This document shows, one piece after another, positions 1,141 to 30,161 of a stretch of DNA of 64,000 bases. Made by a program: the position numbers and the translations under genes. The DNA is taken from positions 682,001-746,000 of the forward strand of contig JAEHOE010000008.1 in assembly GCA_016858145.1 (NCBI GenBank), written 5' to 3'. This DNA comes from Edaphochlamys debaryana (lineage: Eukaryota > Chlorophyta > Chlorophyceae > Chlamydomonadales). The notes under the pieces were generated by a model. That model was given only the letters and a program-made list of their open reading frames with translations. It had not been told where the DNA came from and did not search any database. Position 1 is the first letter of the stretch, and every line of letters starts with the position of its first letter.

Positions 1141-1167
1141 TCTAAATGCCGTTGCCACCACAACCAA

Positions 1168-4870: not shown

Positions 4871-4981
4871 GAGCTTGGCTAGGTTAGCACGCGCTGACCG
4901 TACTGCATGGTGGCGGGGGGCTTTAGGCTTGCTGGCTTTGGCGGGTTGCGTGCTCGGGCGAAGCGTTCAGTCCCCAGCCCG

Positions 4982-4986
4982 TGTAA
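4982..4986 (+). terminator. TGTAA poly(A) signal of the F-box/LRR gene
   Basis: TGTAA is the usual chlorophyte polyadenylation signal. It lies about 110 nt beyond the stop at 4870. Confidence 0.4.
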
Positions 4987-5022
4987 TCCAAGGTAGAAGA
5001 GAACAACTTGGCGAAGAGCCAT

Positions 5023-5165
5023 TCCAAGGTTGTTCACTGGTTGGCCTAACCAGGGTGCGTGGTTCACTGGTTGACGTGAGCAGGGTGGTTTACAGCAAGC
5101 GCAATGCAGGGTGGTTCACTGGTTGGCCTAAGCAGGGTGGTGTATTCCAGGGTGGTTCATTGGGC
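5023..5165. repeat. Degenerate tandem repeat, unit around GGTTCACTGGTTGGCCTAAG
   Basis: Three to four imperfect copies of a roughly 26-bp unit (TTCACTGGTTGGCCTAA-CAGGGTG type) begin near 5029, 5060, 5112 and 5150, with spacers of variable length. It is minisatellite-like and probably non-coding. Confidence 0.6.
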
Positions 5166-5297
5166 AGGGACGGGTTGACCCTGAATGCCCGATTCCGTGC
5201 GTGAGGGGTCTCTTGGGCCCGGGATATGCAAGCAAGGCGAAAGGTGCGAGATAACTTGAGGGCCAAGGCCTCCCGCGCACCCTGGCTGGAAGCCTAC

Positions 5298-5333
5298 TGC
5301 CGCGGCCACCCGCCACGCCGCGGCCACCCGCCA
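5298..5333. repeat. 18-bp unit, two tandem copies
   Basis: GCCGCGGCCACCCGCCAC occurs twice back to back within intergenic DNA. Confidence 0.6.
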
Positions 5334-6263
5334 TCAGCCTGGGCACTCCCCCATCCACCTCTGCCGCTCACCAGATCGGAGGTGGCTCAGTGGTACCGCA
5401 GCGGGCCAACTGTATTCCTTGTGCTACAACAACAAGGCCCGTCTCTCTAAGTGCTCGCACTGTCCGAGCACGATTTGCTCATACTTGCCTCTGGCATGGC
5501 CACAAACAAAGACAAGTTTGTCTACACTGCCCTGCTAATGATCTCCATCTTGAGGGGATGTGAGGCCTCCCTCCATCAGCGTCCCGCCAGGGCCACGCCA
5601 AAGAACGCTGCGTCAGAGCCCTCGTCCATACATCTTACCTCCAGGTCACGCGCCATGTCCCACCCTCCATCCTTGTGTGATACATGATACGGTAGGTGAC
5701 GCCTCAACCTCCCATGAGCCCCCCCACTAGCCCGCGCCGGCGCCGCCTCAACGTCCTCCACCCTCCGCCACCAAGCGGCTAGCAACTAAACCTTTTGCAA
5801 CTCGTAATGTTCCCGCCATGGTGTTAGGCAAGGCATGATAATGTGTGACGGCCACTGTGATGAGAAACCGGATGAGATCACCACCAAAACTTCTCTCGAA
5901 CCTCCACGCGCCACAATGTGTGGGGTAAGCGCCCATGTCGTACGCGGCCCTCATTCGAACGAGATACCTGGCATCTCCAACGCTGCAATGCATAACGCTG
6001 CGCTGCTATCACGCCTGCAAGTGTCACATGGTATCGACAGCCGATGCGCGTGCTCGCATGCACGATCACCTGATGATGTACAACGAGCCAACGAATGACA
6101 ACAAAATCTTTGCGGCACGAGTGTTGCTGCCGTACAATACGTCCGTGCCTCTCAGCCCTACCTGGGATTACTCTAGCTCTTCCTGATAGCTCTCACCGCT
6201 GCACTAGGCTCTTATCTACAATTTCCATCGCCCTGCATCGTCAGGCCTTGCTCCCCTACCACT

Positions 6264-9200: not shown

Positions 9201-9818
9201 GCACGCCCGGCGCAAGCGGGTAGTTCTGAGTGAGGTAGTCGATCATCTTGCCGGGGGCGACGGTGGTGTAGCCCCACGTGGCGTTGCAGGGGTCCAGGCC
9301 CAGGTTATCGTATGTCGCCTGCGGGAAAGAGGGGGGCGCACACGGTGAGTATCAGAGTGGTCCAGGTCAAGGCAAATAGGCGCAGATTGCGGGGGAGCAC
9401 CTGGTCCCGGAAGGTCCCGGCCGCGACGCCATTGAAGCGTCTCAGCGCACCTGGGTGAGCTGGCCGTAGTGCATCAACAGCATCCGCAGCTCAGGGCTGA
9501 GGTGATTGGGGTTCGTGTAGTCCCAGCCAGCATCTGATGAGCGGGACAGGAAAGGCCAGTTGGCGTTTCGGAAATGGGCATCCCAGGAACCCCAGGAGGG
9601 TCATGTCGTGGGACGTGAGCAGATCGAGCACACACCAACTTACCTGTCCAGCCGCGAGCAGCGTGGCCGCGGAGCTTCTGACCCTCCGTAACTTTGGGCG
9701 ATGAGGGGACGAATGCCTTTACCCTTGTCACCGTTCCGCGAGACACCGGCCGGGCCCGCGAAGCCTGGCTCGAGTTGACGCCATTGCTCACGAGGCCAAG
9801 ACCCCGGGAACGGAGCAT
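6264..9818 (-). CDS. Plastid phospholipase A1-II (DAD1-like) class-3 lipase, copy B
   Basis: Complete gene of eleven exons (minus): 9644-9818, 9451-9533, 9164-9318, 8802-8977, 8423-8631, 8008-8190, 7839-7902, 7436-7690, 7087-7268, 6745-6828 and 6264-6467. All phases agree, giving about 589 aa. Expected to hydrolyse acyl esters of membrane glycerolipids in the chloroplast. Residues 1-35 form an Arg/Ser-rich transit peptide ending VTRVKA. The nucleophile Ser351 sits in GHSLGGALS, made by joining exons 7 and 8. The likely acid is Asp427 in KDAVPKIPG and the likely base is His518/519 in KHHNLEVYLH; this order and these contexts are those of plant PLA1-II enzymes. Upstream family motifs include HYGQLTQV, ATYDNLG, TWGYTTVAPGKMIDYL and FVWRGT. 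An upstream in-frame ATG (9959) would add 47 residues; the start at 9818 was chosen because it aligns with copy A and gives a normal transit peptide. Confidence 0.85.
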
Positions 9819-10804
9819 CCTTGGACACGGTTTGGCTCGAAGAGCTCGCTTGACTGGGGCAACACTGTTGCAAGAGAGTAAAGGCAGATTTCGTGTTGTC
9901 GCCGTTAAAGCGATCACCCCACGGCGACGCTTTTTAACTCGTCGTGGCGTCGTGCACACGGGCGCTGCTACGTGCGCATTCTCGACACAATGCGCGGCGG
10001 TGTGCGCAAACTAGCCGCGTGGCCAGTTCCCCGGGCCAACCGCCACTGACCACCAACCGCCGCGAGCTGCCGCGAGCACCCCGCGCCGAACAGCGCGCCC
10101 GAACGGGCCATCGGAAATGCACCAGTGTGGCCCCAGCACACAGTGATACCCACCCTACGCCTACAACGTGTCGCAAATGCGACACCTCGTTCACCTCGAG
10201 TCGAAGTCAGTTAGGATGGGTGACATGGCAACGTGATGGGCGGACCCCCGGAGGGCGGGGGAAGTGCTGCAACTGTCAGCAAAAAGCTATACCGCCACGC
10301 GCACATGGGCCAGATACCGGCAACCGGCATCTACTAATCCCGTGAGCAGGCATGCAACAATAGAAAGGGGGTAGACCCAACCAGCCAAACCGTGCTGACG
10401 AGCACACACAGGCTTCGAACGCCGGATGCAAGCCGGATGATCCGGGCAACACAAACGCATGACTACCCAAACATCAGTTAAGCGCTCACTGCGAGCCGCT
10501 GCTTGGTCAAGGCTCAAGCACCTCTGAGGTGACGCCCGCTCACCGGGCCGCACCTATCCCCCCCTTTGCCCCCCTTCACCGAAACCACCGGCCCCAACAC
10601 TGTATGCAGGGACCGTTCCGCTCGGGCGCGCGCGTGCCCTGGACCCCAGCTAGCCCATTCTTCCACGACTGTGCTCCTCCCTGTCCCCGTCAGAGCAGTG
10701 GGCTACCAGCCCGAGGTCCGGCCCCAGCACCCGCGTCCGCGGCTGGTGGCTCAGTACGCTGCCGCGCTCCTCACACCATCCCCCTCCCTCTGCGGGCCTC
10801 GGCG
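9819..10804. other. Intergenic region between lipase copy B and the 3' end of the giant gene
   Basis: It should contain the lipase 5' UTR and promoter and the giant gene's 3' UTR. No clear TATA box, TGTAA signal, RNA gene or repeat was seen, and open frames on both strands lack recognisable domains. Confidence 0.35.
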
Positions 10805-11200
10805 CTAGCCCGCCATGAGCGCCCTGCAGTCGTACAGCGCCAGGGTGCTGTCCACGGTGCCCACCGCCAGGTAGGAGGTGCCCGAGGGGCCCACGGGGGA
10901 CCAGGCCAGGGACCAGACCTGGGGGGGTGCGGGCAGAGGGGAGAGGAGACACGGCTTGCATGTGTGCCGGCAGCTACACACAACACTTCCCTCCCTGCAT
11001 GCCCTCTTCGCACACATTGAACCCCCCTTCCCCATGCTCACCAGGGAATTGAAGCCCTCCGCCTTCCCCACCAGCTGCCCGCGCACGCCCTCGCCCCCGC
11101 GCGCCCCTCCCGCCGTGTCCAGGCGCCAGATGCGGACCGTCTTGTCGGGGGCGAGCACCGCCAGAACCTCGCCGCCGGGCGCGAAGGCCATGCAACCGAA
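10805..11200 (-). other. C-terminal WD40 units of the giant gene, last two exons
   Basis: Exons 11042-11200 and 10805-10918 (stop TAG). They read MAFAPGGEVLAVLAPDKTVRIW and VWSLAWSPVG...YLAVGTVDSTLALYD. The upstream exon (11514-11577) ends in phase 0 on a donor, and the acceptor at 11201 continues in phase 0, so no gene break is needed. Confidence 0.7.
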
Positions 11201-14200
11201 CTGCAGGGGCGGGGGCAGGGGGACCCGCGGGTGCGCGTGTCATGGCGGGAGGGGAGGCGTCTGCACTACCCGAGCACCCTGGCGGTCGTAAGAGCTTGCT
11301 CCTGCAAGTCGAGGCCCCAACTCGGGGTGGCCGCTGCGTCTGGTTACCCCATCACACCTGCGGCTGCTGCAGACCGGACACGTCCGGGGTCACTTGCGGA
11401 ATGGCTTGCACCTCCTGGGGGCAGATCGTAGAACCAGAAGTCATATGTGGCAGATGGGCGGAGGTCTGCCACTCGAGTGCCTCCCACCCAGTGCCGCCCT
11501 AGGTGCACCGCACCTGCAGATCGTAGCAGCCCTCATGGCCGACTCGGTAGCTGAACTGATCTTCGTTCTCGTCCCACCTGGGCGCACATGCGTGTGGATT
11601 GGTAAGCGAGCACGTAGTCGGCAATGGAAAAGGGGGCCCGGACTTGTACAGACGTACCGGACGCTCGTCCACATGTCGTCTAGCTCCACAATTGTTCCGA
11701 CCTTTCCGGCGCCCCCATCCTGGTCGCTCCACTGTGTCGCGTCAGGGACCCAGGGCCGGAACACTGGTCACTCGGTGAGTTGGTAGGGGTGGAGAGTTTG
11801 CCCTGCAGTCCCACCTTCCAGTCCTTGCCCCGGACGACCTTCATGCCTACTCGAGCGCTCTCCTTCGTAACCCTTCTCCCCTGCTGAAGCTGCACCCGGC
11901 AAGAAACAAAAGCCGCAATGGATCAGAGTGGCTCAAGAGCAAGCATGTGCTGAGACAGATGCAAGACAACGCACCTGGGGCAGAAGCCCCGCCAGCTCCG
12001 GAGGCCGGGGGTCCCCACCGACTTCCTGAGGGTAGGGGCAGGTTGCAGCGCAGAGTTCACGGACGAGGGATGAGCCCCAGCTGAGCCCACAGCCCAATAG
12101 GCACCAGCGGTCCTCAGGACCGGCATCCGGCGTGCCCTCACCCACCGTAAGGTCATAATTCCCGGCCACGCGGTAGTTGTTTGTGCTGCCACTCTTGTCC
12201 CACCTGCGAAATGGAGCATGCACGCGAGCAGGCTTCGCGGCGTGGAACAACGCAACGTCGTGGGAGGCACAGGATCATCTAGAGTGACCCACTTGACGCT
12301 GGTCCACCCGCCGTCTGTGAGCTTATAAATTGTGCCCACGTTGCCCTCGCCGCCGTCCTGGTCGCCCCACTGCAGACATGCAAGGGCACGGGGGAAACCG
12401 ATTGAGCGCGTGTCGAGGGAAGCGAGCTTATGGCAACAGCTTTGGCGTCACTTACATCCCAGTCCGGTCCGCGGACGACCTTCATGCCGACGCGGGCGCT
12501 CTCGCGGGTCACCTTGCCGCCGCTGACGGCCTGCACCTGGGTTTGAGAACAGCTCTTCATCTGCCTCGGCATTAACCTACAGAAAGCCTCAGGCAGTCTG
12601 CGAGACAAGCGTACCGTGGAAGCCGGCGGCCGCCGGGGCTGGGTAGCCGGGGCCGCCGGGGTGCGCACGCTGCTTGTCTGCGTTGCAGCGGTGCAAGACA
12701 ACCACAAGGCGTCAGGAAACACCTGACAGCCCAGCTGAAGCTGAGTGCGCACAGCACGGTCCCGAATGCACATGCTGGGCGCGCAGCCCGCTCGCACCCG
12801 GAAAGCGGCGATGTCGAACTGAAAGGGCTCAGCGCCGAAGTTGGCCTTGATAACAGCGCCCTTGCCAGGTCCAACCGCCGACACGGTCGGGTACAGGCCC
12901 TCCACAAGCTTTACGGGCACATTGTCGTACTTCTCGCCGTTCTTGGTGAAGAAGATCTCGCTCTTGACCAGATCCAGCCCCGCCCCGACAACATCGCCCG
13001 CCCCGTACTTGGAGCCTGCGGGGTGGGAAGCACGCCGGAGGTCAGGATAGGACCTGAGGTGGACACTGGTCGGCTGGGTCAGGACACAGCATGCATAGCA
13101 GCACAACACCTATGGACGCGTGGCAGCCGCCGCACGCACCTCCGAAGGAGTGGCCCTCGCTTTCCTTGTGGTACATCTTGCCATCGTCTCTGTTGAGGGC
13201 CAGGGCACGGGCACGGGGTCAGGGCACGGGCACGGGGTCAGGGTCAGGGCACGGAATGCTGGGCCGAGAAATGCTAGGACCCATGCCCGCCTGCAACCCA
13301 CCCGTGGTACCCGAAGCTGACGCCCTTGGCACGCCCGGGCTGCGGGGTCGAGGCAGGAGGCAAAGCAGTGGTCGTTGCCTCCTGGCATCCACCATCAACA
13401 GTATTAACAGTGCAAAAAGCATACGAGAACCCCATCATAACAAACCCTACCACGCGCTTGAGGTCGTACTCCGCCGGTGTGAATCCAATCGCAACGTAGC
13501 TTTTGTCCCTCTCCATGACTGCCATCTCCTGCGGTTGAGAGCGGAAGGGGGGTCGGATCGGCAGGCCGTCACACAAGACCATGCTAGTACCGGTACAACA
13601 CCAGGTTTCCCTTGGGCACAGCACGGCGGTACGTACGAAGTAGAAGATGCCCTTGTCGAGGAACGCCGCGCTGGGCACCGGTGCGTCCGCTTGCGCGCAG
13701 CACTGCACGCGTCAGCAGGCGGCAGCCCAGAGCAAGGAGCCGTGGCATTAGTGCGTTGAATAGGGGGGCCGGTTGTGAAGGCGGCCTTGCCGGGTAGAGC
13801 CTTCGCAGGACATTGCTACCCCAAACGTCCAGGCCAGTGCACGCAGCGGCATGCCTACCCCTGCGCTGTCGGTGACGGCATGCTTGAAGATGAAGCCGTC
13901 GTCCACGGAGCCGCTTGGCCCTACCCGCTCAGGGTTGAGCCGGCTGGGCAGCGCTGGAGGCGTCGGCTGTGGGGGCATGGAGGGCAAGGCCGGAACCACC
14001 CTCAGACTCCGAAGGAGGGGAAGGGTAGCGCGAGGGCAAGGCCAGGACGACGGCCAGGCTGCAGAGGAAGGGCAGGTTGTGCCGTCCAGGCAGACAGGGC
14101 GCGCACAAACCCGCTAGGGTCTGCCACGACGACGGCGCAGGCTCTCACCTTGAAGCTGGCGACGTCGAAGCGGAACGGCTCTTGGCCAAGGTTGATGCGG

Positions 14201-17200
14201 ACCACCGCCCCGGCCCTGCAGGGCGCAGACCATCATTTGGGTCGTAAGATCGTACCAGACACCAAATTCTTGAAGGCCCTCGCCAGGCCCTCAGCCCAGC
14301 CCCTTGGGCACTTACCCCTCAGCGCTAATGGACGGCACGAGTCTAGAGGGGATGGCTACGTCCACGGTGGCCAGCTGGGTCCCGTTCTTGCTGCAGAGGG
14401 CGAGGGCAGACGCAGGCGCTTACAATCAGCTGTGGACTACATGTCTCCGCGCCGGGGGCTCAGCCCCAAAACTGTAGGACGCGCCCTCTGAGCCGCATCT
14501 TACGTCCAGAAGACCTGCTTGGCGTGGACGTCGAGTCCGGCGCCGACGACGTCCCCAGTGCCGAACGTGGGTCCGTAGAGCGGGCCCCGGCCTGAACTGA
14601 GGAAGCGCCTGCCGTCATCCCCATGGTACCCCATGGAGTCGGACTCCCATCTGCAGGGACAAAGCCGTGAGTGAGTCGGATCGTCGGGCTGATACAGGCG
14701 TAGGGCAAGAGGTCCAGCGAACTTGGGCTACTCAGCCATTGGTCAACCCGCAGAAGCTGCAGAAAGCAGTGCGGTACTTACCCGGGCTATGAGCACCCGT
14801 TGAGCAGAGGCCGCCCGCAAAACGACACGGGACGTCGGCAGCGGGGTGGGTTGGCGGCAAAGTTCAAATGCCATGGAGAGCGCGGGGTTTTGCCCGGAAG
14901 CCCCTGACCCTGCGCCCCCGCCCACCATTTTGCTGAGGTCATAGTCGGGTGGGGCGAAACCGATGGCCGTGAAGCTCTTGGCTCCTGCGTTCACGATTTT
15001 GGCCTCGAAGTAGAACACGCCCTTGGCGCCCCGGCCGTCGAGTGAGGGGATAACTCCGTCGGCTTGCGCGCAGCACTGCGGCAGCGGAGGACACGTGTAC
15101 GGTAGAACATGAGCAAAGAAAGGTAAAACTTCTGAGCCGCCGATATGGTGCTGTGTGTCGCGTCACGACCAGGCAACGCGCAACGCACCGGGCCGTCGTC
15201 GTCGCCCCCGGTGTATTCGAGAGTGAAGGCGTCTGGGCCCAGCCGCCCGGCGGACCCGATTCGCCCCTCATCGAGCTGCTGTGGCGGCTCCAGCTGCACC
15301 TGATGGGCGGGAGCCTACGGCGGCCAGGGTGACAGGTATGCCTCAGTGTGTGCAAGGGCGTCCGCTGCGAGCGACCCCTACATCAGTCAAGGACAGCCCC
15401 TAAGACATTATACTCCTCACCCAGCTGGTGGCGGTTGCAGGCAGCAGCCCGCGGCACACGCCTGTCCCCGTGTCGTACAGGTACACCGCACCATCCGGGC
15501 CCGCGGCCGCTATGAGCGAGGCATTCGGGCTGAAGCGCACGCACGTGGCCGGCGGCGCCCACGCCGGCGGCTGGAGCACGACGGGCGGCGTCGCCAGCGC
15601 TCCTCCCGCGCGCACGCCGTACAGCCGTACGGCACCGTCAGAGAAGCACACCGCCAGCAGGCCGCCCGGCGACCAGTCGAGACTCTGCACAGCGACCGGC
15701 TGCGGGGCAGGCGCGGCCGCCGCTGACGCTGGCGGTGGTGCCGGCGAGCTGGGGACCAGGGTGGCGGTTGCGGACTGGCACGGCACTGCCGCCCCGGTCG
15801 CTGCGCTGCCCCTTGCCGCGGGGCTGGCGACGCCGGCCGCCCCCGAGACGTCGTGCAGGAGCACGGCCCCTCGGCAGCTCCCTGAAGCCACCATGCGGCT
15901 GTCCGGAGACCAGGCCACCGCCATGACCTGCAGCGCGGCCGGTTCAAACATGTTGTCAGATTTGGCCTCGGCAGTGTGAGCTTCAAGGTGCTTCAGTGCG
16001 CACGTACCTGCTCAGCGTGGCCGACCAGGTGCAGGTAGCCGGTGGCCTCCACGGCTCCGCCGCCGCTGCTGGCCTCGCCGCCGCCCGCGGCCAGCAGCCA
16101 CAGCCGCACCGCGTTGCCGCGGCCGCTGGTGGACGCGACCATGCGGCCGTCGGGGCTGTAGCAGACGGCGGTGTTGAAGTGATCCTTCTGAACAGCAGCT
16201 GCCGCAGGCTGGGTGCTGGGCGCCTCATGAGCTGCTGCTTCTGCCGACGGCAGTGAGGCGGCCGCTGTGTGAGGTGCACCGGACTCCGGCGGCGGCTTGT
16301 ACTCGAGCGCCGAGTGCTGGGCGAAGGCGCCGTCTCCGCAGCCGAGCGTCCAGGCCAGCATGGTGCCGTCTCGGCTTGTGCTGAGCATGCGGCCGCCGTC
16401 GGGGCTGAAGCACAGCGACCACACGACGTCGCTGTGGACCCGAAGCCGGAGGGTGCAGTCGAGTGGCAGGCGCAGCTGCAGGGGCACACGCAGCCTCCAG
16501 AACAGCCCCGCAGCCTTGGGCTTGGCGGCGGCTCCTGCCGCTGCCGCCCTGGGATCGCTCTGTGGGGCGTCCTCGTCCTCCTCCTCGTCCACCTCCGTCA
16601 GGGTCTCCAGGTTGAAGACCCGTACCCGGCCATCCCAGCAACCGGTGACCAGCAGCCCTTCGCCGCCGTTTCGGCCCGGCGGCGCCACCGCAAGGGACGT
16701 GACCTGCGCTGGGTGCGGCACGCCTGCCAGCACCCTGCCCGCCTTGAAGTCCCAGATGCGGACGATGCGGTCCTTGCTGGCGTTGTTGCTGCTGCCCGGG
16801 TACTCGCCGTTGGAGGCGGACAGAAGGAAGCGGCCGTCAGGCGTGAAGGCCGTGGGGCCTCCGTAGCTGCAGGGAAGTCAGGGACCACCCCGGCAGTCAG
16901 GCCTACAGCTTCAGCTCTACAGTCCGGGTCCGGCATCTGCGCGCGTGTGGCTCACCTGCCGTAGGGCTCGTGTCCAACGAGCGTGGTGATTAGGCTCTTG
17001 GACGCCACGCTCCACACGCTCACGGCCCGGCCGTCGTCCATGGCCACCACGTGGGTGCCCGAGGGGCTCCATGCCACCGAGTGCACCGGCCTGTCAGCGG
17101 TAAGGCAGAGCGGGTGGTCACGTGTTGGGGTCGGCCAGGTTGCACCCAGAGTGACCCGACACCGACCTGGGGGAGTCGGCTTGAAGCACTGCTTCCGTCT

Positions 17201-20200
17201 TGCCGGTGGCCACCTCCCAGATGCGGACCGACTTGTCCTGTACGGCAGGTCAGGAGGAAACGGGCTCTACGAACTGCCACACCGGAGGGGGTCAGCTAAC
17301 GATCCAGCCTGGTAGCACTCACGTGTGACCCGGTCGCCGCAAAGGCCCCGCCGTCATGCGGAGATGCGTCGATGCACCACACGCAGGTGGAGTGACCCTC
17401 CAGCTTGGCGAAGGAGCCGTCGTCCAGGTTGTGCGACAGCACGTCTCCCGTATTCGATCCAGATAGCTGCGCGCGTCGACGGAAGTGACATGTATGGGGA
17501 TCTCACATTGCTCCGCGTGTATCAACCAAAGCTCGCTGGTAACCCCTTCAGCTAAGGAGGTTCACCACAACCCAAGGGCGGGCACCAGGCAGCTCACCAG
17601 TCGGGTGGCCTCGAGTGCACGGTTGGCGCCGTGGCCCGGGAGCCGCTTGCGGAGACGCCCGGACGGCAGGTCGTGCAGGGACAGGCGGCCGTTGTCCCCA
17701 CCAATCACCGCCGTGGTCCCGTCGGGGGACAGAAGCACGAAGCTGACCACCGCCTGCCCGTCGCTCAGCGCGTTACTGTCCAGGCCGGCGCCGGTATCCG
17801 TGTTGTGCACCCTGCGCTCCGGGCACGTGGGATAAGAAAGCCCTTGTAAGGGTTGCCAGGAGATTCGCTGGCTAGTCAGGAGGTCGACTGCCGCTTAACG
17901 GCAAGAACGGCATGTCGTCTCACCTGGCCAAGCCGTCCTTGGTCGCAGAGGCCAGTAGGCGGCCGTCTGCCGATGCCGCCACTCCGTACAGTCCAGAGGA
18001 GGCCGGCCACAGCACCTCACACAGGGCGTTCGAGTCCGTGAGGCCCTCCTCTAGGCAGCCCACGCCTAGGGCGCCTGGGCCCTCTGCTGACGAGGCCTGG
18101 TTCGCCGCAGCGTCCGCTGCCTCAGCGGCTGCGAGCACGCCTTCGAAGCTCCATTTGTACAGCCACTTGCCGCATGCCACAACCATCAACTGACCGGGGG
18201 GGGGGGGGTAGGTGGGAGGACGTCAGAGTCACTGACCCTGCATGCACAATTGTTCCACGCCTCTTGCTACCCCTTCGCTGCAGACGCACGTACACATGCT
18301 GATAGCCCGTCGCACCTTGCCGTCCCTGAGGAAGTCGATGCCACGGACTTTGAGCTCCTCTCCGACGCCGGGGCTGGGCGGGAGCTTGGCCACCAAGGCC
18401 CCCGTCGCAACGGACCACACGCGCAGCTCAGCCTTGTCGCTGCCGGTGACCAGCACCGAGCCGCCGGGATGGAATCGCAGGCGCATTACCTCGCCGGAGT
18501 GCCCCTTGAGCGTGTGCAGCACCTTGCCCGTCGCAACCTCTATGACCTGACAGAAGGCGCAATGGCGGGGAACAAGGAGGAGGGCGGGAAACGCGTTAGG
18601 GTCAGGAAGCCGTCGGCAGCCGTCGGCGGGCGAGGAACACACCTGGACGGTGCCGTCGCGGTGCCCGCTGGCCACCTGGTGTCCTTGCGGGTGGAAGTCC
18701 ACGCGCCACCCCAGGCTAGAGGTGCCACTGCAGGTGCTGACCACCTTGCCCGTCGCCAGGTCGTGCACGACAACCTGTGATTGCATGCAGTGAAGTCGAG
18801 CACTCCATGATGCAAGCCCAGGCTCGGAGGCCTCCCGCCCGCTGGGAGCCCAACATCAAAAACCCACCTTGCCGTCATCTGCGGTGCTTGCCACCTGCGT
18901 CCCGTCGGCGGACATGGCCATGCTGTTGACGTCATCGTCGTGGCCGATGAACGTTGCTGTGCACTTGTACGTTGTGCTATCGTACACCTGAGGGCGTGAG
19001 ACGGGCGTTTGGCAGCTGGAATGAGGGGAAGGGTTGCGCGCACCATTCCAATCCGCCACCCGGCTTGCACCCGAGCCTACCTTGATGGACTTGTCGAATG
19101 AGCATGACACAATCTGGCTACCATTGGGGCTGTAACGCAGAGGGGGATGATGTGACAATCTGGACCAAAGCCGCAGGCAGCTTTGTGACTGCTAAGCCCC
19201 CTTTCCGGCCCACCTGAACATTGCTGCGTTGCATGTCCTCCGGTGCCCGCTTAGCTTCTGCAGGAGCTTGCCCTCTGCCGCGTCGTACACGTGCACGTCA
19301 CCCGAAGAGCTGCCTGTCACGAGCTTGCTGCAGTCTGCCGTACAGTGAAGAAATATGATGGAGTAGTCTGAGAGACTGGTGCTGAACTTGGCGAGCTGCT
19401 TTCCCGTGTACGGGTCGATGACTGCAATGTTCCGCTCATCGTCGCTCAGAAGCAGCTTAGTGCCACACGGCGCAACGGTACAGCACATGAGGGTGAGAGG
19501 CCACTGCACGCAGGGATTATCGAAGCCGGATATGCGTGATGCCCCTGCAAGGTCATGGCAGGGCCATAAGACATGCACGCGGGCGCACCTCGAGCACCTC
19601 GACAGTTGCTGAGCTGAGACCCCCGTCCTTGCCGCGGTGCCAGCACTTGAGCCCGGCTGGCAGCCTGCAGCCGCCGTCGGCAAGAGGGCACAAGGTTTAC
19701 AAGGCTTGCAAAGAGTCAACGACCTCTCAGCCCATGACGCTGAGCCGAAAGCGCTCGCACCCACGCCCACCTGCCCGTTGCTTTGAGAGCCTTTGCATCC
19801 GCGCTGCCGTCCACAAGGAGCCGCCGCAGCTGGCCTGCCGGGGCCCCCAGCCCAGCCAGAGCGTCTGCAAGTGCTACCACGTCAGGCAGCCCTACGCCGC
19901 CGCCGAGGCGCAGGTCCAGCTGCTGGAGCGTGTGGAGGGCCGGCAGCTCTGTGGCGCACAGCAGCCGCTGTAGCTCTGGCGAGGAGGCGAGCAGCGTCTG
20001 GCCCGCCAGGCTCAGCAGCTTCAGCGTAGAGCCGTGGCGGCCGAGCAGCAGCAGCAGGACCCGAAGGCCTGGGCAGGGTGACATGCACACGCGAGAAGAG
20101 CAGAGGGGGTAAGACGTGGCGCCCACGCAAGTCCCACGCCCCATCCACGTTCCACGCGCCCGCCCAGCTCCGTGTATCCACCCACCTTCCTCCGAGAGGC

Positions 20201-23200
20201 TGAGCGCCGAAAAGTCCAGCCTGTGCTCTCGGCCCAAGCTACCCGGCAGCAGCCCCAGCGCCAGGGCTGCAGCGTCCGCCTCCGTGAGCGCCTCCGGCCG
20301 CACCGGGATGCCGTGCTCCCTCTCCACGCGGCTTGCAGACAGGCGGGTCTGGAAGGCAGCACCTGCTGCTGCTTGAGCCGGCGTTCGGGCCCTGGTGGAT
20401 GGCAGCTGCGCCGGGGCACGCGGAGTGCCCTTGGCAGTCGCCGGCTTGGCCGCCGCCTCCAGATCGTGCCTCTCAAGCTCTGCCTGCAGGATGTCATCTA
20501 TGTCCTCTTGCTCCGCTGCGGCATCGGCCGCCGCCCTGGCCACGAGCAGTGCACCGCATCGCCCGCACGCCCACAGCAGGGCCGCCACAGAGCTAGAGGC
20601 CGCAGACGGCGTCTCGCCAGACGCTGCCGCTCCCTCGCCAGGATCACCACCCGCCGTGGGCGTTGAAGGTCTTATCAGTGCCACACCTTGGTCACGGTGG
20701 GGCAGCAGCAGTGCGGCCATGGGAAGCACGCAGAGGCTTCTCAGGTCTTGGGGTGGCGCCGTGGCAGCTGAGCCGGCGGTCGCGTAGGCCCAGGCCAGGG
20801 CTGCGATGTGGGTCGGCTGTAGCGCTGTTGAGGAGATGCCGGGGACAAGGCCCAGCCTTTCCTCGCCGCCAGCGCCCGTACCGATGGCGGAGCACAGCTC
20901 GTCCACTTGCGCGTTGCCACTTGCCAGGGCTACGAACCAGGTGGGGCTCCTGGGGCTGCTGCCGGGCGTGGAGCAATCCAAGCCGGCCAGAGAGGCGAGG
21001 CGGGACAGAAGCTTGACTGAGGGCTGCAGTGGGCCAAGCCGCAAGCTGTGGGCACCGCCTTCCTCAGGGGCTGCCATGGCCCTTTCGCCGTCTGCCAAGT
21101 CCTCGCACGCCGGCTGCCGCTCTAAGTCATCGGTCCCAGCCGTATTGCAGGCATGCGTAGCAGTGCCCAGCAGAGCAACCTCGGGCGCTGAAGAGCGCGA
21201 GGCGTGGCGCTGTAGGGCAGCTGCTAGGAGCTCGAGCGTGGCTTCGCTTAGCGTGTGAGAGGAACCCGATACATCCAGTGCCGTGAGAGACCTGAGCTGC
21301 GGCAGCACTTGGGCAAGTGCCTCAACTAGGCAATCACCGGCACTGTCCACCACGCCGGCCAGGCGGAGCTCCCTCACGCGGGGCGCCGCTGCGGAGCGGC
21401 GCAAGGCGAAGGCCAGTGCCGCCAGTCCGGTCTCGCCCAGGCCAGAGCTGCCGTTCAGGTCCAAAGTCCGCAGGACGCCGGCTGCGCGAGGCTGCTGCTG
21501 CACCAGCGCCGCCGCCAGGGTGACGGCCTGGGCATCGCCGGCCAGCGGCGCAACGATGCAGTTGGGAGTGACCAGCCCCATTGCCCTCTCGCCCAGGTCC
21601 TGGAAGCGCCAGGTCAGGTCGGCCAGCCCATCCGCCGGTGCGGCCGCCGAGTCAGAGCCTATGGCGGCGGTGGCAGTGAAGGCGTCGCCCAGTAGCTCGT
21701 CCAGCTCAAGGGCAAGGGTCTCCACCTCGTCGGCAAGGCTGGGTGCCTCGAGGCTTGGCGTGTAGGCGCTGAGGAGCTCCAGGAGCTGGATGAGTGCGTT
21801 GAGGAGCTCGGCCAGCTCCGCGGCGTGGCCGGAGGTGGCGTATATTGTCGCCAGAAGCTCAGGAATCAGCTGTGGGTTGGGCGTGCCCGCCGACCGGGCG
21901 AGGCGCTCCACCTGAGAGCACAGAGCGCGTGCTGATGCGTCCATGGGCGGTGGTGCGGTTGCGTTGGCGTCTGGCACCTTTCCCTTGTCCTGCGGCCCCT
22001 GGTTGCCGTTGCTAGTAGCAGCAATGACCAAGGAACGCAAGCTGTTGCCTTTCCCAAGCGCCGCTGCCTCCTCATCGTCGCCGTCACCCCCCGTGTTCTC
22101 ATTCTGGCTGCCATGCCTTTTTTCCAGCTTGTCGGCTGCGTCTTGCTCACTGTTCTTCTGGCCGTCTGGCTGTGCACTTGCGGGGCTGTCCGCAGCAAGC
22201 TCATCGTCTGACAGCGACGGAGACTGCAACTCCACGCGAGGCCTGGGCCGCGGGGCGCGTAGCGGGGCCGGCAGGAGCAGTGCCGTGACGACATCACTGA
22301 GAGCGCCCGCGCTAGACGGCACCAGAACCAGCTGGAGCGGTGGGCGTTGTCGTGAGGCGTGCCGCGCTGCTGCGACAGCCGCCAGGGCACCGAGGGCCTC
22401 CTTGCCGCCAGCGCTGTTCTGCTGAGCAGCGCCCTTGCTGCTCTTGTCGTCGGCGTCCCAAGCACTATTGCTGAAAGCACCGTCGGCTGCATGCTTGGTG
22501 CCGTCGCTGCTGCCCGCTGCATCCCGGCAGCCGGATGCCAGCGCTGCAAGGCCCTCGAGCAGGCGCTCTACCTCGGAGGCTCCGAAGTTGTCTGCCAAGC
22601 GCCCTGACCCAAAGGTGTCGGCGTAGACCTTGAGCCCATGTGGAGATGCGCTGTCGGCAGCGACACACGGTCGTGTGGCCGCGGCAGCCGCGTGCAGCAG
22701 CGGCAGCACGCCCTCCAGCAGCGCTGGGCCCTCGACGCCTGGGTTGTGCTGTAGATCAAGGGCCTCCAGCTCCTCAGCGCAGCCGGTCTCCACAAGCGCC
22801 CTGCAGATGGCCGTGAGGCCGCTGTCGTCCAGCCGGCACCCCACCAGGCCCAAGCGGCGCAAGTGCCGCAGCGCAGGTGTGCGCAGCGCAGCCGCCAGAG
22901 CCGTGGCGCCGACGGTGCCCAGAACACTCCCCTCCAGGTTGAGCGCCATGATGCGGCTTGCGCCTTCGGCGGCTCGTGCAGCCAGCTGCAAGGCTGTCGC
23001 GTGCAGGTGCCCCGATGACAGCTGCCCGAGCTGCTGCGGCGCCGGCGAGGACAGGAGCTGCGGCGGCGCATGGAGCTGTGCCAGGACGAGGGCAAAGGCC
23101 AGGGCTTGGCCCTCCTCGGAGAACACCATGGCCACGTCACTCTCTGCCGGTGCTTGCTGCTCTGGAGCGCCCTGGTCGGCAGGAGAGTCCTTGGCGTGGA

Positions 23201-26200
23201 GCTCCCTGGCCGCCGCCAGCCAGCCATCCTTGTAAGCCGCGGCCGCGGCTTCTGCGGGTCGCTCCACCAACGCAGCCAGGGCGCGGTCGACTGCTGCATC
23301 GCCTGTCCTCAGCAGGAGCACGGCACGGGCATTCCGCGGCTGCTGCGTAAGGGGCGACCTGGGCTTGCCCCGGACCCACAGCTTGGTCGCTGCTTCCAGC
23401 AGCGTTGCCACGGTGCCGGGCTGCAGCAGGGACTCTCCACGCCCTATGCTGGCGGTCACCACCAGCTCCGCGCCGCCGCTGGCCGCCTGCTGCTGCTCAC
23501 GAGCCGCCGCCCATTTGCCATGCTGACGCGCGTCTGAAGCCGCAGACGGCGGCGCAGCGGCGGCCTGAAGCAGCGGCACCACGCCCCGCAGCATGCCGCG
23601 GTCGCAGAGGCCGGGGTTAGCGTGCAGCTCAAGGCGGCGCAAGGCGGCGCAGCCCCCGCGCCTCGCGATGGCGGCGCACAGCATGATGGCAGCGTCATCA
23701 TCCAGGCCGCAACCCGCCAGCCGCAGCTCGCGGAGCGTATTGTTGCGCTCGAGGCCCAGGCACAGGTGCTCCAGGGCGGACACAGCCGTGGCCGCGGCAG
23801 CAGCAGCAGCGGCCGCGGCGCCCGCTGCCGGGCCCATGCTGGGCGTCGTGGGCACGGTGGTGCCCGGTGCTGCGGTGGACACCACAACCTGCGCCCCCGA
23901 TAGATCCAGACAGACGAGGTTGGTCGGGCTGGCGCCAAGAAGGCTGCCGGCAAGCATGCCCAGCACGCAGGCAGCCCCCCGTGGATGCGTGAAGCCCGGG
24001 AGAGTTGTTGCACGCCCCTGCTGCGCATTGCCATTGGTCTTGTCGGCCGTTGAGGAGGCCGTCGCCCATGTGGACAGGCATAGCTCGATGGGGCAGGGCG
24101 TGTGGGCGGCGGTGATGGCCACGGTGACCAGCTGGCCCAGGTCCTGTGCTGCGTCCGCGGGAAGCGCCAGGACCGCAGGAGGCTGCGGAGGAGGCTGGCC
24201 AAGGCGAGGAGGCTCAAGGGCGGCTGCGTCCTCGAGGTCCTTGGCCTCAGGGCCCTCCTCCTCGCCGCTTCGCCCCCAGCCCTTGTGTTTCCCGTGGCCC
24301 TTTGCGTGACCCTTGGGCTTGTCCGTGGACGCGGGAGCGGTTGCTGGCGGGGCTAAGGCAGCGGCTGGCGTCATGGCCATCACTCTTGCACACGCCTGGA
24401 AAGAGATACCACACCGGAGGGTGGGCGGGGGAGGGATTCAGCAGGGTTCGACCAGCTAACAGCGGTGGCCTTGCTGCCTCATAGAATCGCGACGCTCACC
24501 TGCTGCGTCTCACTGCTGGAGCCGAATTGGGGAATGACAGCGCCACCGGCGGCCACCTGCGCGGCGCAAGACCGCCGGCTGAGACTTCCAGTGGTAGATT
24601 GAACGGGCGGGCGACTGTAACAAGGGCGGGCACCACCGTTCCCCCTGTCCAGCCGGGCCCACCTCATTTAGCTCAAGACGTCGCGCGGGAGGGCCTTTGG
24701 CTTGCTTGGCGGTGTGGCGGCTGTACAGGAAGCTCAGCCACTCCATTGCCGGAGTGGAGGACTCAGGCGGATTCTCGTGGAAGTCAAGGTCCTGCAGCTG
24801 AGTTTGTGCCGCCAGGGCCAGCAACTGGCCGGCCACCGCATCTGAACCACGGGTGCCCATACCGCACTTGGCCTGCGGGTCAGGAGGGGCACAGCTGTGG
24901 ATGGCCGGCCAGAATGTGGCCACTCGGTCTCGGGACCGATCCCGGCCCGCGACCCCCGTGGCTCAGACCGTCAAGTGACATCAACTCTCCCTCACATCGC
25001 GGACAGGGTCGGAGGGTCGCCAGCGGGCGCGCGGAGAAAGGTCTGATGGTTACTTGCTGCAGCTTGCGACAGCTTGTGCGATGCATTATCAGTGATGCTT
25101 CAAAAGTTGTTCGGTTACTCAAAGCGGGCAGTCGGATAGCGCCGAGCGCAGGGAAGGTCCGTTGCGACCGAGACATGTATCGAGCTTTTGCAGAGCTCGC
25201 GGGGATGTCTTGCTAGTGTTTTACGTATATGTATAGGAATAGGCTGAGAGCTTCGGTGCACAATTTTCTATACCGCCGCGCCGTGCTTGCGTCGACCCCC
25301 CGTGACCAGCCTCCTCCCATCCTCACAAGCCCGGAAGCCCCCGCCCCCGCACCACCGCTTGTAGGATGACAGCACCCCTTTCACCCAGCTCACCAGGATG
25401 AGGGTTGTCAGGTTAGGTAGGTGTGACAGCACGCCCGCGACCGCCTCCACACCCGCATCGCCGATAGCATTCGCGCTCAGGTCCAGCGAGGTCAGCGTCG
25501 AGTGCACCTTAAAGAGGGCAAGAGGGCAACCAAAAGTGAGAACTCAGGACTATCAGGAACCACCTTACGTCTGCACTCGAGCCTCTGCCGCCTGCACACA
25601 AAGCCCGTCGGCGCGCACCTGGAGCCCGGGTAGCATGTGCGCCAGCGCCTCCACTCCCAGACCCGTCGCCTGCAGCTCCAGCGTCTCGATCGAGCGGTTG
25701 AAGGCGAGGGTGGCGCCGATGCTGGCGCAGTCCTCGGCGTGCAGGTCGCTGTGGCTCAGCACCAGGCGAGACGGGGCCAGCACGGCCGACAGAGCCGAGG
25801 AGAGCATCGACAGGAGCGCAGGGGAGCGCGGGCAGGGCACCAGGAGCACCTGGCAGGAGGGACAGTACGATCAGGGTATAAGCATTGACGGCCAAGATTG
25901 GGCGTCAAACCCAAGCTTCCCGTCCCTGCCGGCTGCAGTTCCTGGAGTCACCTCACCTTAGAGTCAATGTTCATTCCCCTGGGGCGGTAGCTGGGCACCA
26001 AGTGGAGCTCCCGCAGCTCCCCGGAAGCGCCCGGCCGCTGCGCCGCCGGCTTGCGGTCCCCCGCCGCGTGCAGGGGCTGCTGCAGCGCACCGCCGCGCCG
26101 CGCCCGCTCCTCCAGCCGCTTCTCAATCTCGCTGCCGCCCTCCGGATGGACCACCACCAAAAGCCGCGGCCCCGCCGCCTCCCGCAGCCTGGCCAGCGCA

Positions 26201-29200
26201 GCGTACTGCGCGAGGCGCACCAGTCGACCGTCCGGGACGGGAGCGCCCTCCGCCGTCGCGTCCCCAGAAGCCGGCTCCTCCATACCCCGCGCCGCCGCCG
26301 AGGCCCGCATCATGGCCGCCGCGGCCAGCGCCGCCTTCATCACGTCCGGCGCGTGCCGCGCCGACGGCTGCACGGTCGTCTCGTCACCGTCCCCAGAGCC
26401 CTCGCACGCCCCAGCCGCCGCCTCCGCCGCCGCCGCCCGGGCGGCTGCCTCCAGGTCCGCTGCCGTCACGGCCGCCTTGGTCTCCGTAACGGGGGCCCTG
26501 GCCCGGTACTCAGCCTCCGCCTCCAGCTCCTTGTCCAGGGCGTCCAGCATGGCCGGAACGTAGACATCGCACTCGTCCAGGAGCACGCGGCAGAGCTGCG
26601 GCTGCGCGATGAGCACCTGCGCCAGCGCCCAGCCCACGGCCACGCTGTTGGAGTAGGCCTGCAGGCTGCTGCCCGAGGCACTGGACGTGTATTGGCCTGT
26701 GGGGGAGGGGCCAAGGTGGGAAGGTTCTTAAAGGCAGGGGCCAGGTGGGCAGGGCTAGGGCCCGATGCAGGGTGGTCAGGGTGCGAAGAGGAGGGAGCAG
26801 CGAGCCACGCACCCGTCAGCACCAGCTTGCTCAGCTGCAGGTCCAGCATGGGTGCCTCGGGATGCACCTCCAGAGCCGCCTGGGGCAGCACCTGCACCAC
26901 GATCTGCGGACGGCAAGCAGCCAGGGCCGGTGGCAGACCGGTTAAATGCAGGGCCACAACTACACGGTGGCCTTGCCTTGGCTGGTGCCCTTGTCTTGTG
27001 CGCGGTTATCGACCCGGCATTGACCCCAGCATGCACGCTCTGCAACATGCGGGCTTACGTTGTAGAAGGAAGGCGGGATGAGGTTGCCACCGCCGCCGCG
27101 GCGGCCCTGCCCGCCGCCCACCAGCCTCAGGTGCGGCGGCAGCGCCACCACCTTGCGCAGCAGGCGCGAGGCCACGCTGGGGTCCACTTGCTGCATCTGC
27201 AGCGCCCGCAGCGCCGGCAGCCGCACCTTGGAGTAGGAGGACAGCACGTCCATCAGGCTGCGCCGCTGGAAGGCGCTAAGGGAGGAGTAGATGTGGTCCC
27301 CGGCTCCGCCCAGGACGAACACCAGCGAGGGCGGCAGGCCGCGAGCGCGCGCCGCGGCGGCCGCGCTGGGGTCAACCTTCTCCAGAAAGGAGATGGCGCG
27401 CAGCGATCGGTGGCCTGGGGCCTGGTCCGCTCGCTCCCAGGCCTCGTCTTCAATCTCATCCTCCGAGCCGCTGTCGCAGTCTGCGCCCGCCGCGCCGTTT
27501 GGCAGCCCGCTGCCGCTGCCGCGCTTGCGCGACGGCAGAGGTACGAGCGCGCCGCCGCCGCCTGGAGGGCCCGAGTCGCTGCTGCTGCCGCCGCCGGTTC
27601 CGTTGCCGCCCCCGCTGGCCGCGTCCGAGCGCTCCCGCTCCTCCACGCGGCGCACGTGCTCCGCCACGCGCTCCAGCATGGCGTTCTGGGCCTCGATGGG
27701 CACCTTGGTGGAGCCCTGGGGGTGGAAGTTGAGGTGGTGGTAGGAGGCGGGCATGGGGGAGAGGAAGCAGACGGAGGATGTGGAGAAGAGGAATGCGGAT
27801 GGCGGCGGACCAGGGCGGACCTGCCCTCCCAAGCACCTGCCTCGACCCCGAGATAGATGGCATAGCTTCCCTACCTGCAGGCGGATGAGTGGGTCCAGGT
27901 ACTCGAGGAACGTGTCCCCGCTGGAGCGCCAGGCGTTGTACATCTCCCTGCGGCGGGGCGGGAGCGAGGGCGGACTGAGAGAGTGAGGAGGAGGGGAGCG
28001 CGAGAACCACACTGGCTCATCCGGCCCACCATGCCTTGTTTGGCCCTGCCCTCACGGCCTCACCACGATACGAGGATCAGGTTGCAGACGGAGCCCAGCA
28101 GAGAGACCGTCAAGACAACCTGGTCGGAGGAGAGGGCAGTGTCAGGGCAAGGCAGCAGCACGCAGGCGGCGAAAGGGAGAGCCGGAAGTTTGGCTCCTTG
28201 GCGCTCTCCACGGCCCCAACCACCTGCGACACCTCCACAGCGTCCGCGGCGCTACGTACCGTGCAGCGTCAGGTAGTACAGGTACACCTGCGGGTTTATT
28301 GGAGGTGCGGGCCTAGGTGGAGCGATACCCAGAGGCTTGGCCGCTTGGGCGCCGTTCCAAGAAAACCTTACGGCAGCATACCCCGGGCCAGGGAGCGCGG
28401 CTCCCGCTTATGCTGTGCCCGGTCTGCACCTGCCCCGCGGCGCACCTGCAGTGCCGTCTGCGGCAGGCTCTCCAGGAAGCACTCGAGCGGCAGCCGCGCG
28501 CGCTCGTACTGGCGGCAGAAGTCCTCGGCCGTGCGCATGGTGTAGCCTGGGAGGGGGCGGCAGGGCGGGTGGGTGAGTGGAATGGGCCAGCAGCCCGTCG
28601 CTGGACTTCAAATCCCAATGGTGGCCTCCATGCATGCCCGGCCTATGGCAACGGGTAGCTGGCTCACCCGCGTCCCCGTGGTCGACGCTGAGGACGAAGG
28701 CGCTGAGCACCCTGCATGCGCAAGGAGGGCAACAGGCGAACTGCAGTTGGAGCAAGCCCTCCTCCAGGCGCACCACCGCACACGACCCCCGCCCGCCTGC
28801 CTCACATGTACACGTCTATGAAGGGCACCAGCAGCAGCCCGAAGATGACGAGCAGGACGTAGAAGAACAGGTGGATCGCCTCCTGCAGCCTGCAAGTTCC
28901 AGCACAGAACAGAACAGGACAGAACAGCACAAGTGAGGCTTGTACATGTGCTGACCGTTGACCGTGCAAGCCCGCTCGCCTGGCGACGGCGCCGATGGCG
29001 GGCAGCGCAGAGGCCGAGGCGGCTGAGGCAGCGGAGGCGTCGCCGGCAGCACCCGGCGCGGCACCCGCCGTGCTGCCAGACAGCAGCAGCACGTGGGCGG
29101 CGTAAAAGCTTTGGTTGGCGGCGCGGAGTATCATGAACTGCACCGGCGGCGGAGGGCCCGGTGGGGCCGGCGGGGGCGGGACGGGTGGTCACCAGAGGGA

Positions 29201-30161
29201 TGCAGGGGCCGGGGTTTGAGTTGGGACTTGGAGTTCGGGAGTGCTTCCTTCAAACCTCTGAAGCCCCTGTGCAAGCCCCCCTCACGTAAGTGGGCACGTA
29301 GTGGGCCAGCATGAAGACGAGAGTGAGCGTCCCCAGCCGCGTGTAGCCGTTGCCAAACAGGTTCTGAGGGGCAGGAATTCGGTGAGGTGAAGGACCCAGG
29401 GCCTGCCTTACGAGCTATTCTACGAGGGCGGTGTCCAGAGCCCGCTGCTCCCAAACCTCAAAACCGTACCTTTTAGCCCCCTCGCTCCCCCCTTTCCTCC
29501 CTCCTTACTTCCGCCTCCACCCACCCTCCCGCCCTTACATCCCCCGCGCCCTTTCATTCCCGCGCCCCACCTTGGCCAGCACCGCATCTGACACCACGTC
29601 CACCACAAACAGGGTCGCGCCCAGGATGGGCAGGCCGCGCCGGAAGGCCCAGCCGCGGATGCCGGGCAGCTCCTTGGCGTCTCTTAGCTTGGTCCACAGC
29701 TTCTCCTGCAGCCGCATCTTCTCCTCGCCGCCGCGCGCCCGGACGCCACGCCGCTCCGCCGCCCCCGGCCCCCAGGTGTTGGCGCCGACGCTGCCCAGCG
29801 CGCGCGCCTTCTGCTGTCGGCGCAGGGTGCCGGCCATGGCAGAAGCCGCCAGCACGGCGGTGGCGCTGCCGCGGCCGGAGCGGGCGGCGTGCTGGGCGGC
29901 ATGGTGGCCCCTAAACAGGCCCCAACCGCCGCCGGCGCCGGTGCCTTTGCTGGCGGACGCTAGCTTGGCGGATGCGGGTGAGTGAATAACGGGGAGGGGT
30001 GGAGGAGGAGGCTGAGAAGCCCGGGCACCCTCCTTCGGGCCAGGCGCCGGGTCTCGGCTGGAAATTGCAGCTGCCCAGGCAACCCGGGGGCCGCCGTTGG
30101 CGGCAGGCCTCTCGAGGCCCTCCGTTGTACCGGTAACGGACGGGACCACTTTGGAGGCCAT
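10805..30161 (-). CDS. Giant multidomain protein: XK-related membrane module + LRR + WD40 + 2x SPRY + 2x MIB/HERC2 + WD40 (about 4,277 aa)
   Basis: About 52 exons on the minus strand from ATG at 30161 to TAG at 10805. Every domain border is an exon flanked by donor and acceptor sites rather than by a stop or start, and phases agree at all junctions except one (exons 7/8, near 28119-28260). Another junction (15966/16008) requires a 41-nt intron. Approximate residues: 1-170 disordered; 170-404 XK-related membrane module; 405-1104 linkers and LRRs; 1105-2607 long LRR block; 2608-3651 WD40 repeats; 3652-3836 SPRY1; 3873-4022 SPRY2; 4044-4186 two MIB/HERC2 domains; 4187-4277 WD40. I saw no NACHT or NB-ARC P-loop and no protease or kinase motif. 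Function unknown: LRR, WD40, SPRY and MIB/HERC2 are ligand- or ubiquitin-pathway-binding modules, while XK-related proteins include phospholipid scramblases. The alternative is several adjacent genes, but no internal stop/start boundary supports that. Confidence 0.65.
11514..12677 (-). other. Two MIB/HERC2 domains of the giant gene, exons 44-50
   Basis: Exons 12615-12677 (linker), 12456-12536, 12293-12369, 12146-12203, 11815-11889, 11658-11731 and 11514-11577. Each domain is split at the same three places. Domain 1: RVGMKVVRGPDWD, WGDQDGGEGNVGTI, WTSVKWDKSGSTNNYRV, NYDL. Domain 2: RVGMKVVRGKDWK, WSDQDGGAGKVGTI, WTSVRWDENEDQFSYRV, CYDL. This fold recognises ligand tails in the E3 ligases Mind bomb and HERC2; no RING or HECT domain is present here. 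Confidence 0.8.
12798..13966 (-). other. Linker and SPRY domain 2 of the giant gene, exons 38-43
   Basis: Exons 13859-13966 (linker), 13637-13702, 13451-13528, 13302-13339, 13140-13189 and 12798-13015. Core motifs are CCAQADAPVPS, GIFYF, SYVAIGFTPAEYDLKRV, GVSFGYHGDDGKMYHK, YGAGDVVGAGLD, EIFFTKNGEKYDNVPV, LYPTVSAVGPG and EPFQFDIAAF. It is a tandem duplicate of SPRY1, with the shared leader CCAQAD at an equivalent acceptor. Confidence 0.75.
13195..13255. repeat. Intronic short tandem repeat (GGCACGGGGTCAGG-type)
   Basis: Alternating CAGGGCACGGG and CACGGGGTCAGG units in the intron between the exons at 13302-13339 and 13140-13189 of the giant gene. Confidence 0.7.
14149..15299 (-). other. SPRY domain 1 of the giant gene, exons 32-37
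   Basis: Exons 15189-15299, 14926-15075, a proposed 5-nt microexon 14782-14786, 14504-14650, 14316-14390 and 14149-14215. The SPRY core reads GVFYFEAKIVNAGAKSFTAI, GFAPPDYDLSKM, MGYHGDDGRRFLSSG, YGPTFGTGDVVGAGLD, QVFWTKNGTQL and EPFRFDVASFK. The WD40 array connects to it in phase (TSW to VQLEPPQQ). Confidence 0.75.
15421..19664 (-). other. WD40 repeat array of the giant gene, exons 19-31
   Basis: Exons: 19589-19664, 19214-19503, 19081-19129, 18868-18987, 18643-18774, 18316-18546, 17924-18189, 17598-17811, 17323-17466, 17167-17237, 16956-17090, 16008-16866 and 15421-15966. At least a dozen WD40 units can be read, e.g. FSPNGSQIVSCSFDKSIKVY, FHPQGHQVASGHRDGTVQV, FHPGGSVLVTGSDKAELRVW, VHSVAWSPSGTHVV, LCFSPDGGRMLSTSRDGTML, VAWSPDSRMVASGSCRGAVL and CVRFSPNASLIAAAGPDGAV. 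That is enough for two propellers. Many exons equal one repeat. The gap between the last two exons is only 41 nt and is flagged separately. Confidence 0.75.
19771..24395 (-). other. Long LRR block of the giant gene, exons 17-18
   Basis: Exon 17 (20186-24395) is 4.2 kb without a stop, the largest open frame in the window; exon 18 is 19771-20068. It is Ala/Leu-rich with LRRs of ribonuclease-inhibitor type: LRELRLAGCGLDDDAAIML, LRRLGLVGCRLDDSGLTAI, VRELRLAGVVDSAGDCLVEA and LTALDVSGSSHTLSEATLEL. Blocks repeat internally: an LRR followed by LHANPGL or LQHNPGV and then a VPLLQAAAA / VLPLLHAAAA helix occurs twice. Low-complexity acidic and Ser-rich linkers separate the blocks. An internal Met at 24383 is not a start, because a good acceptor (TTTCCAG) precedes it in frame. 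The intron 20069-20185 is required to keep the LRR EEG-LRVLLLLLG continuous. Confidence 0.65.
24500..27715 (-). other. Linker and first LRR section of the giant gene, exons 10-16
   Basis: Exons 27059-27715, 26813-26903, 25957-26696, 25619-25849, 25394-25507, 24663-24872 and 24500-24556, all in phase. The first long exon begins with a charged helix (RVAEHVRRVEERER), then a Gly/Ser-rich stretch, then LRR-like text (LPALRALQMQQVD, LDLQLSKLVLTG). Clear LRRs follow: SRLVLSHSDLHAEDCASIGA, IETLELQATGLGVEALAHM, LTSLDLSANAIGDAGVEAVA and LPNLTTLILAKCGM. These are ribonuclease-inhibitor-type repeats like those of NLR proteins. Exon 16 (IPQFGSSSETQQ) leads directly into the large exon through an acceptor at 24396. 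Confidence 0.6.
27875..30161 (-). other. XK-related (XKR/CED-8-like) membrane module of the giant gene, exons 1-9
   Basis: Exons: 29571-30161, 29286-29363, 28980-29137, 28806-28889, 28668-28711, 28446-28546, about 28260-28287, 28064-28119 and 27875-27947. Hydrophobic segments are LPILGATLFVVDVVSDAVLA, LGTLTLVFMLAHYVPTYV, IHLFFYVLLVIFGLLLVPF, VLSAFVLSV, VYLYYLTL and VVLTVSLLGSVCNLILVS. The diagnostic stretch is RLPLECFLESLPQTALQ, which matches the family pattern of an amphipathic Glu...Glu-x-x-Pro-Gln-x-x-x-Gln segment followed by a membrane span. An early Asp-rich helix (VVDVVSD) also fits XK proteins. In animals some members (XKR8, CED-8) scramble phosphatidylserine at the plasma membrane during apoptosis; scrambling here is inference. 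The exon-3 donor is GC rather than GT, and the exon 7/8 junction is out of phase as read. Confidence 0.55.

Follow-up and report, generated by a model that had tools for sequence, protein, structure and literature searches.

A probable single giant gene of Edaphochlamys debaryana that would join half of an XK-related domain to LRR, WD40, SPRY and MIB_HERC2 modules

The window, as we call the whole stretch of 64,000 nucleotides analysed here (C8:682001-746000), belongs to the genome of Edaphochlamys debaryana, which was searched as 141.89 Mb in 502 contigs; the GC content of its 2-kb stretches ranges from 62% to 72%. The region under study lies on the minus strand between two same-strand neighbours, a NOP56/58-like gene above, reaching to 33.1 kb, and a class 3 lipase below, with models running from 10.1 or 9.5 to 6.3 kb. 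What appears to be an array of class 3 lipase genes in tandem, with DNA pieces 69-95% alike and the lipase identity taken from Pfam for one piece, extends over window positions 404-9321 and over C8:667041-681974. Within this array, outside the window and about 17 kb downstream, is found an orphan copy (C8:675045-675506, L036), 96% identical, of the last two exons, the intron and the stop of the region studied (window 10783-11240). At the other end, window 60812-62197 is an inverted repeat of 517 bp, 98% identical, with a tRNA gene in each arm.

The exon set was obtained from a simple dynamic-programming gene finder and then curated by hand: no introns were placed in the long open frame 24395-20186, nor in the frames 16866-16008 and 15927-15421, SPRY 2 gained the exon 13702-13637, and a 9-nt exon, 11366-11358, was dropped. 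The curated chain is open from 30161 to 10805, which bears out the stop-free run through all modules claimed in an earlier note on this DNA; the single protein of about 4,277 residues that it had announced is recovered as one open chain, with a length of 4,238 amino acids instead. The 49 introns (48 GT-AG and one GC-AG, at 28979) have a median length of 112 nt and a maximum of 521 nt. The features discussed below are the following.

10805..30161, minus: entire proposed coding region of 50 exons, from ATG 30161 (there may be another start) to a stop that ends at 10805
27875..29633, minus: XK-related N-terminal half, with TM1, TM2, an IH1-like element, TM3 with ESLPQ, and TM4 (PF09815; helices by eye)
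28260..28287, minus: micro-exon candidate VYLYYLTLHG, end of TM3, no in-phase GT-AG join to 28119-28064
25957..27715, minus: linker, exons 27715-27059, 26903-26813 and 26696-25957 (coding bias)
24500..25849, minus: first LRR block, exons 25849-25619, 25507-25394, 24872-24663 and 24556-24500 (LRR_6, 32.8 bits, one stretch)
19771..24395, minus: further LRR blocks, exons 24395-20186 and 20068-19771 (LRR_6, 33.8 bits, two stretches)
19697..19701, minus: TGTAA within the LRR/WD40 border intron, 17 nt beyond the stop met on intron read-through
15421..19664, minus: WD40 blades preceding the SPRY/MIB block (19 counted by eye; the profile gives 17, of which one scores negative)
14149..15299, minus: SPRY 1 (Pfam; RanBP9/10-like)
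12798..13966, minus: SPRY 2, exons 13966-13859, 13702-13637, 13528-13451, 13339-13302, 13189-13140 and 13015-12798 (Pfam)
12146..12536, minus: MIB_HERC2 domain 1 (Pfam; MIB1-like; alignment to relative)
11514..11889, minus: MIB_HERC2 domain 2 (Pfam; HECTD1-like; alignment to relative)
10805..11200, minus: last two WD40 blades and stop (profile; alignment to relative)

All five borders proposed earlier between modules (27875/27715, 24500/24395, 19771/19664, 15421/15299 and 11514/11200) do carry a GT donor and an AG acceptor. Automatic models use 27875/27715, 19771/19664 and 15421/15299 in five settings out of five, join donor 24500 to 24182, not 24395, in all five, and never join 11514/11200 directly; acceptor 24395 was used in a separate gene-finder run. 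Under stricter settings the whole-gene models start at 30443 (2/5) or 29837 (3/5), not at 30161.

The module list of the earlier note stands for LRR, WD40, SPRY and MIB_HERC2, and has to be amended in that SPRY and MIB are each doubled, that the XK-related part is an N-terminal half, and that the final WD40 module consists of two blades and is no independent domain. Tandem WD40 repeats are above the Pfam cut-off (261.2 bits, 13 stretches), SPRY (PF00622) scores 125.1 bits over two stretches (cut-off 26.3) in the shorter piece with the added SPRY 2 exon and 114 bits in the automatic model, and MIB_HERC2 (PF06701) scores 116.5 bits, also over two stretches (cut-off 33.5). The best solved-structure match of SPRY 1 is to RanBP9/RanBP10, at 105 bits; RanBP9 carries CTLH parts, which were not found within the SPRY/MIB stretch here. 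While the paired MIB_HERC2 domains recall the ubiquitin ligases MIB1, HERC2 and HECTD1, the present protein differs from these in having WD40 propellers and SPRY, and no HECT or RING in its SPRY/MIB stretch. The full family lists for that stretch, for the first 1,009 aa of the automatic model and for the long LRR frame contain neither HECT nor RING, and neither appears among the best 25 of 57 families for the 1,518-aa WD40-SPRY-MIB part. Other paired MIB_HERC2-like domains, 31-40% identical to these, are present in the same genome at L001:8225-9238 and L005:4783-5477.

With the SPRY/MIB region as query, 42 proteins were retrieved. Among these a hypothetical protein of Astrephomene gubernaculifera, Agub_g14313 (1,921 aa), is alone in combining WD40, SPRY and MIB_HERC2 among the Pfam matches listed, and is, of the six that were read, the only one with the same domain order. 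It is colinear with the window from 20.4 kb to the stop, with 41% identity over 1,570 positions, in an alignment that crosses three of the five borders (19771/19664, 15421/15299 and 11514/11200), the LRR/WD40 junction being aligned as ALKATGR-LPAGLKC versus ALKETGR-LPPGSKC. Both proteins have the last LRR-like block, about 21 WD40 blades, SPRY, two MIB_HERC2 domains and two final blades, but there is one SPRY in Agub_g14313 and two here. Counted by eye, 19 blades precede the SPRY/MIB block and 2 follow it in either protein; a profile made from the blades of the relative recovers 17 + 2 here, one of them scoring negative, against 19 + 2 in the relative, the latter count being circular. By the relative's annotation, the stretch from 20.4 to 10.8 kb is confirmed as coding for one predicted protein.

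This homology covers Agub_g14313 from about residue 245 to the shared C-terminus. As annotated, the relative lacks the XK part and the earlier LRR blocks, and has no segment above the hydropathy threshold. Because its first ~160 residues, rich in Cys and Arg, have no convincing match in the window, it speaks neither for nor against the N-terminal half; an out-of-frame reading of its N-terminus against the window also gave nothing convincing. M199 could be its true start, the annotated one being doubtful. The domain order is shared, in Agub_g14313, from the last LRR-like block to the C-terminus, and no relative sharing it was found for the XK part, the linker and the first LRRs. A search for full-length homologues (3,713-aa query) found none, and was insensitive, since SPRY proteins of its length range surfaced in the SPRY/MIB search only; no relative was found with the XK-to-LRR half, and no match of the long LRR frame to plasmid records in a DNA search. 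When 18 stretches of the genome, taken from XK, MIB and SPRY family matches, were compared with five query pieces, the SPRY/MIB piece alone matched, weakly, at 5 of the 18 loci, and therefore no paralogue of the whole architecture was seen. Strict combinations of the domain names retrieved no paper on such architectures among open-licence PubMed Central full texts.

Further upstream, exon 24395-20186 (4,210 nt) stays open over 1,403 codons where the remaining two forward frames contain 21 and 32 stops, and links the last LRR-like block, shared with Astrephomene, to earlier LRRs with no intervening stop. The LRR repeat register carries on, as judged by eye, across the 521-nt intron 25393-24873, the largest gap of the model. 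No Pfam family is above cut-off in the linker, and the 159-nt intron of border 27875/27715 sits within one stop-free frame, 28051-26963. Codon bias, trained on exons 20068-10805 alone and applied to the 16 exons upstream, is positive in frame for every one of them and negative in all 32 shifted forward frames; in a single exon (29137-28980) the antisense frame scores slightly above the in-frame one. The best-frame bias does not exceed 0.04 per codon in any of the 16 introns examined. It is this coding bias, together with the short gaps and the stop-free frame across 27875/27715, that would make the XK part, the linker and the first LRR block continuous. The one-gene claim of the earlier note is thus sustained from 20.4 to 10.8 kb, where the relative's single protein matches it, while for the membrane end the evidence comes from the present sequence.

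According to an excerpt of the literature on XKR9 (PMC8298096), that protein is built of two related repeats of four helices each, with TM3 kinked at a PQL motif. Here PF09815 scores 24.0 bits (cut-off 24.8) over profile positions 4-149 of 337 in the phase-correct model, and 30.8 bits over positions 4-173 once the micro-exon 28287-28260 is joined out of phase; the match stopping at position 149 or 173, the second XK repeat (of two, making eight helices) was not found. Hydropathy is above threshold at residues 177-195, 274-305 and 351-369, and past residue 369 there are three weak hydrophobic segments (1.65-1.72), all within the LRR part. The protein resembles XKR8 and XKR9 in its acidic TM1 (D..SD) and its hydrophilic TM3 with E...E..PQ, and departs from them in having PQT for PQL, no second repeat found, a score near the Pfam cut-off and an XK part fused to a very large cytosolic part; its match to the XKR9 sequence is not significant (E 0.61). 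The weakest place of the chain is inside this domain: the micro-exon makes up the second half of TM3, its phase failure was judged from the reading frames by eye, and skipping it preserves the frame and shortens TM3. The misfit (window 28063-28445), which we counted against one gene, would be explained by any of three causes: a splice site of unusual type, an error in the sequence, or decay of the domain. A second frame resembling half an XK protein (523 aa, minus strand, C150:87346-88917, or L009:7346-8917) scores 18.1 bits, below cut-off; its first helix carries D..SD, and a later helix ESCPQ.

The statement of the earlier note that no poly(A) signal separates the modules proved wrong for the green-algal TGTAA, of which the minus strand has four copies in the interval (29539, 19701, 14424 and 12456), a density equal to that of the minus strand overall (16 copies in 64 kb). 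There is none between 29539 and 19701, and none in 10830-9480, beyond the gene's own stop. Since about 40% of green-algal 3' ends are without UGUAA, according to an excerpt of PMC1868727, its absence is weak evidence, and we rejected it as a test of gene borders.

The same program, run with weak penalties, turns the entire minus strand of the 64 kb into a single gene of 217 exons. Same-phase splice sites, which the earlier note had taken as a sign of one gene, are therefore no evidence by themselves, and after this control we rejected them as such. The same behaviour favours the view that the chain is an artefact: where genes lie compactly on one strand, any of them could be chained in phase with the next. 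Against it, stricter control runs (ten settings, genes of more than 300 coding bases shown) separated the lipase neighbour in all ten and kept the stretch down to 10805 whole in five, these same five cutting off both neighbours; moreover, the relative's protein spans three borders, which largely refutes an artefact for 20.4-10.8 kb, and we regard this view as very improbable. The five settings in which the chain is broken were counted against one gene; four of them have a break between 29.5 and 27.75 kb, and the two harshest start a gene at 24380. Other breaks made by the gene finder lie within the propellers (17118/17041) or within SPRY (14500/13176), at places without a border in the relative's protein. 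Also counted against the one-gene reading is the length of the model introns, shorter than the median of 198 bp given for E. debaryana in an excerpt of PMC8226300.

Were the strand to hold two adjacent genes here, one for an XK-LRR membrane protein (about 30.2-24.5 kb) and the other for an LRR-WD40-SPRY-MIB protein with its start near 24380, this would fit with Agub_g14313 covering the second half only, with the in-frame ATG 24380 directly after acceptor 24395, with the gene start found there in two of ten settings, with the skipping of that acceptor by all five automatic models, and with the stop reached 19 nt into a read-through of donor 24500. Yet the coding parts would then be 104 nt apart, scant room for a 3' UTR, a promoter and a 5' UTR, and short of the median intergenic distance of 555 bp (measuring procedure not checked) published for E. 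debaryana in the excerpt of PMC8226300; furthermore, the gap holds no TGTAA and LRR_6 is present on both of its sides, and we deem such a split unlikely. It is quite improbable, too, that the XK exons 30161-28446 form a separate short gene, the giant one starting near 27.9 kb. Four of the ten settings do break the chain in this area, three of them at 28.37-28.25/27.94-27.75 kb, the micro-exon does not join in phase, and there is a gap of 326 nt; but with the micro-exon the XK profile match continues into exons 28119-28064 and 27947-27875, so that the split would cut the domain before TM4, and the linker and exon 27947-27875 lie in the same stop-free frame.

We therefore return to a single gene. 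As read from the sequence, the whole stretch is very probably one gene, and the best explanation as a whole, which we hold to be likely, would be one gene whose product, made of these modules and about 4,240 aa long, is anchored in a membrane. The first XK-related repeat, of about four helices, would anchor the N-terminus in the membrane, and the cytosolic remainder would comprise the linker and several LRR blocks, then about 21 WD40 blades that probably form three seven-bladed propellers, with the SPRY-SPRY-MIB-MIB block inserted before the last two blades. That 21 equals 3 x 7 suggests that these two blades close the third propeller around the insertion, and they probably do complete a propeller into which the SPRY/MIB block has been set. 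That blades 7 and 14 are followed by long linkers was rejected as proof of three propellers, blades 15 and 17 being followed by long linkers too. Exons, coding bias and domains are seen directly; what we infer is that the 30.2-24.5 kb half belongs to the same mRNA, how many propellers there are, and the function. As to the latter, we tentatively suggest that the protein may be a membrane-tethered scaffold or substrate adaptor, bringing partners together by way of peptide-binding modules typical of ubiquitin-ligase receptors and without a catalytic domain of its own. Rather unlikely, in our estimate, is a more daring view in which the half XK fold, one four-helix repeat with its acidic TM1/TM3 residues kept, would be a stand-alone green-algal module placed on a giant receptor, where ligand binding would gate putative lipid scrambling or local ubiquitination.

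We are probably dealing with known modules in an unusual order. Should RNA confirm the gene, it would specify a membrane-anchored giant scaffold pairing half a scramblase fold with ubiquitin-ligase-receptor modules, and it would raise the question of whether a single XK repeat can function by itself. A further suggestion is that a relative's annotation may leave out the N-terminal half of giant genes of this kind.
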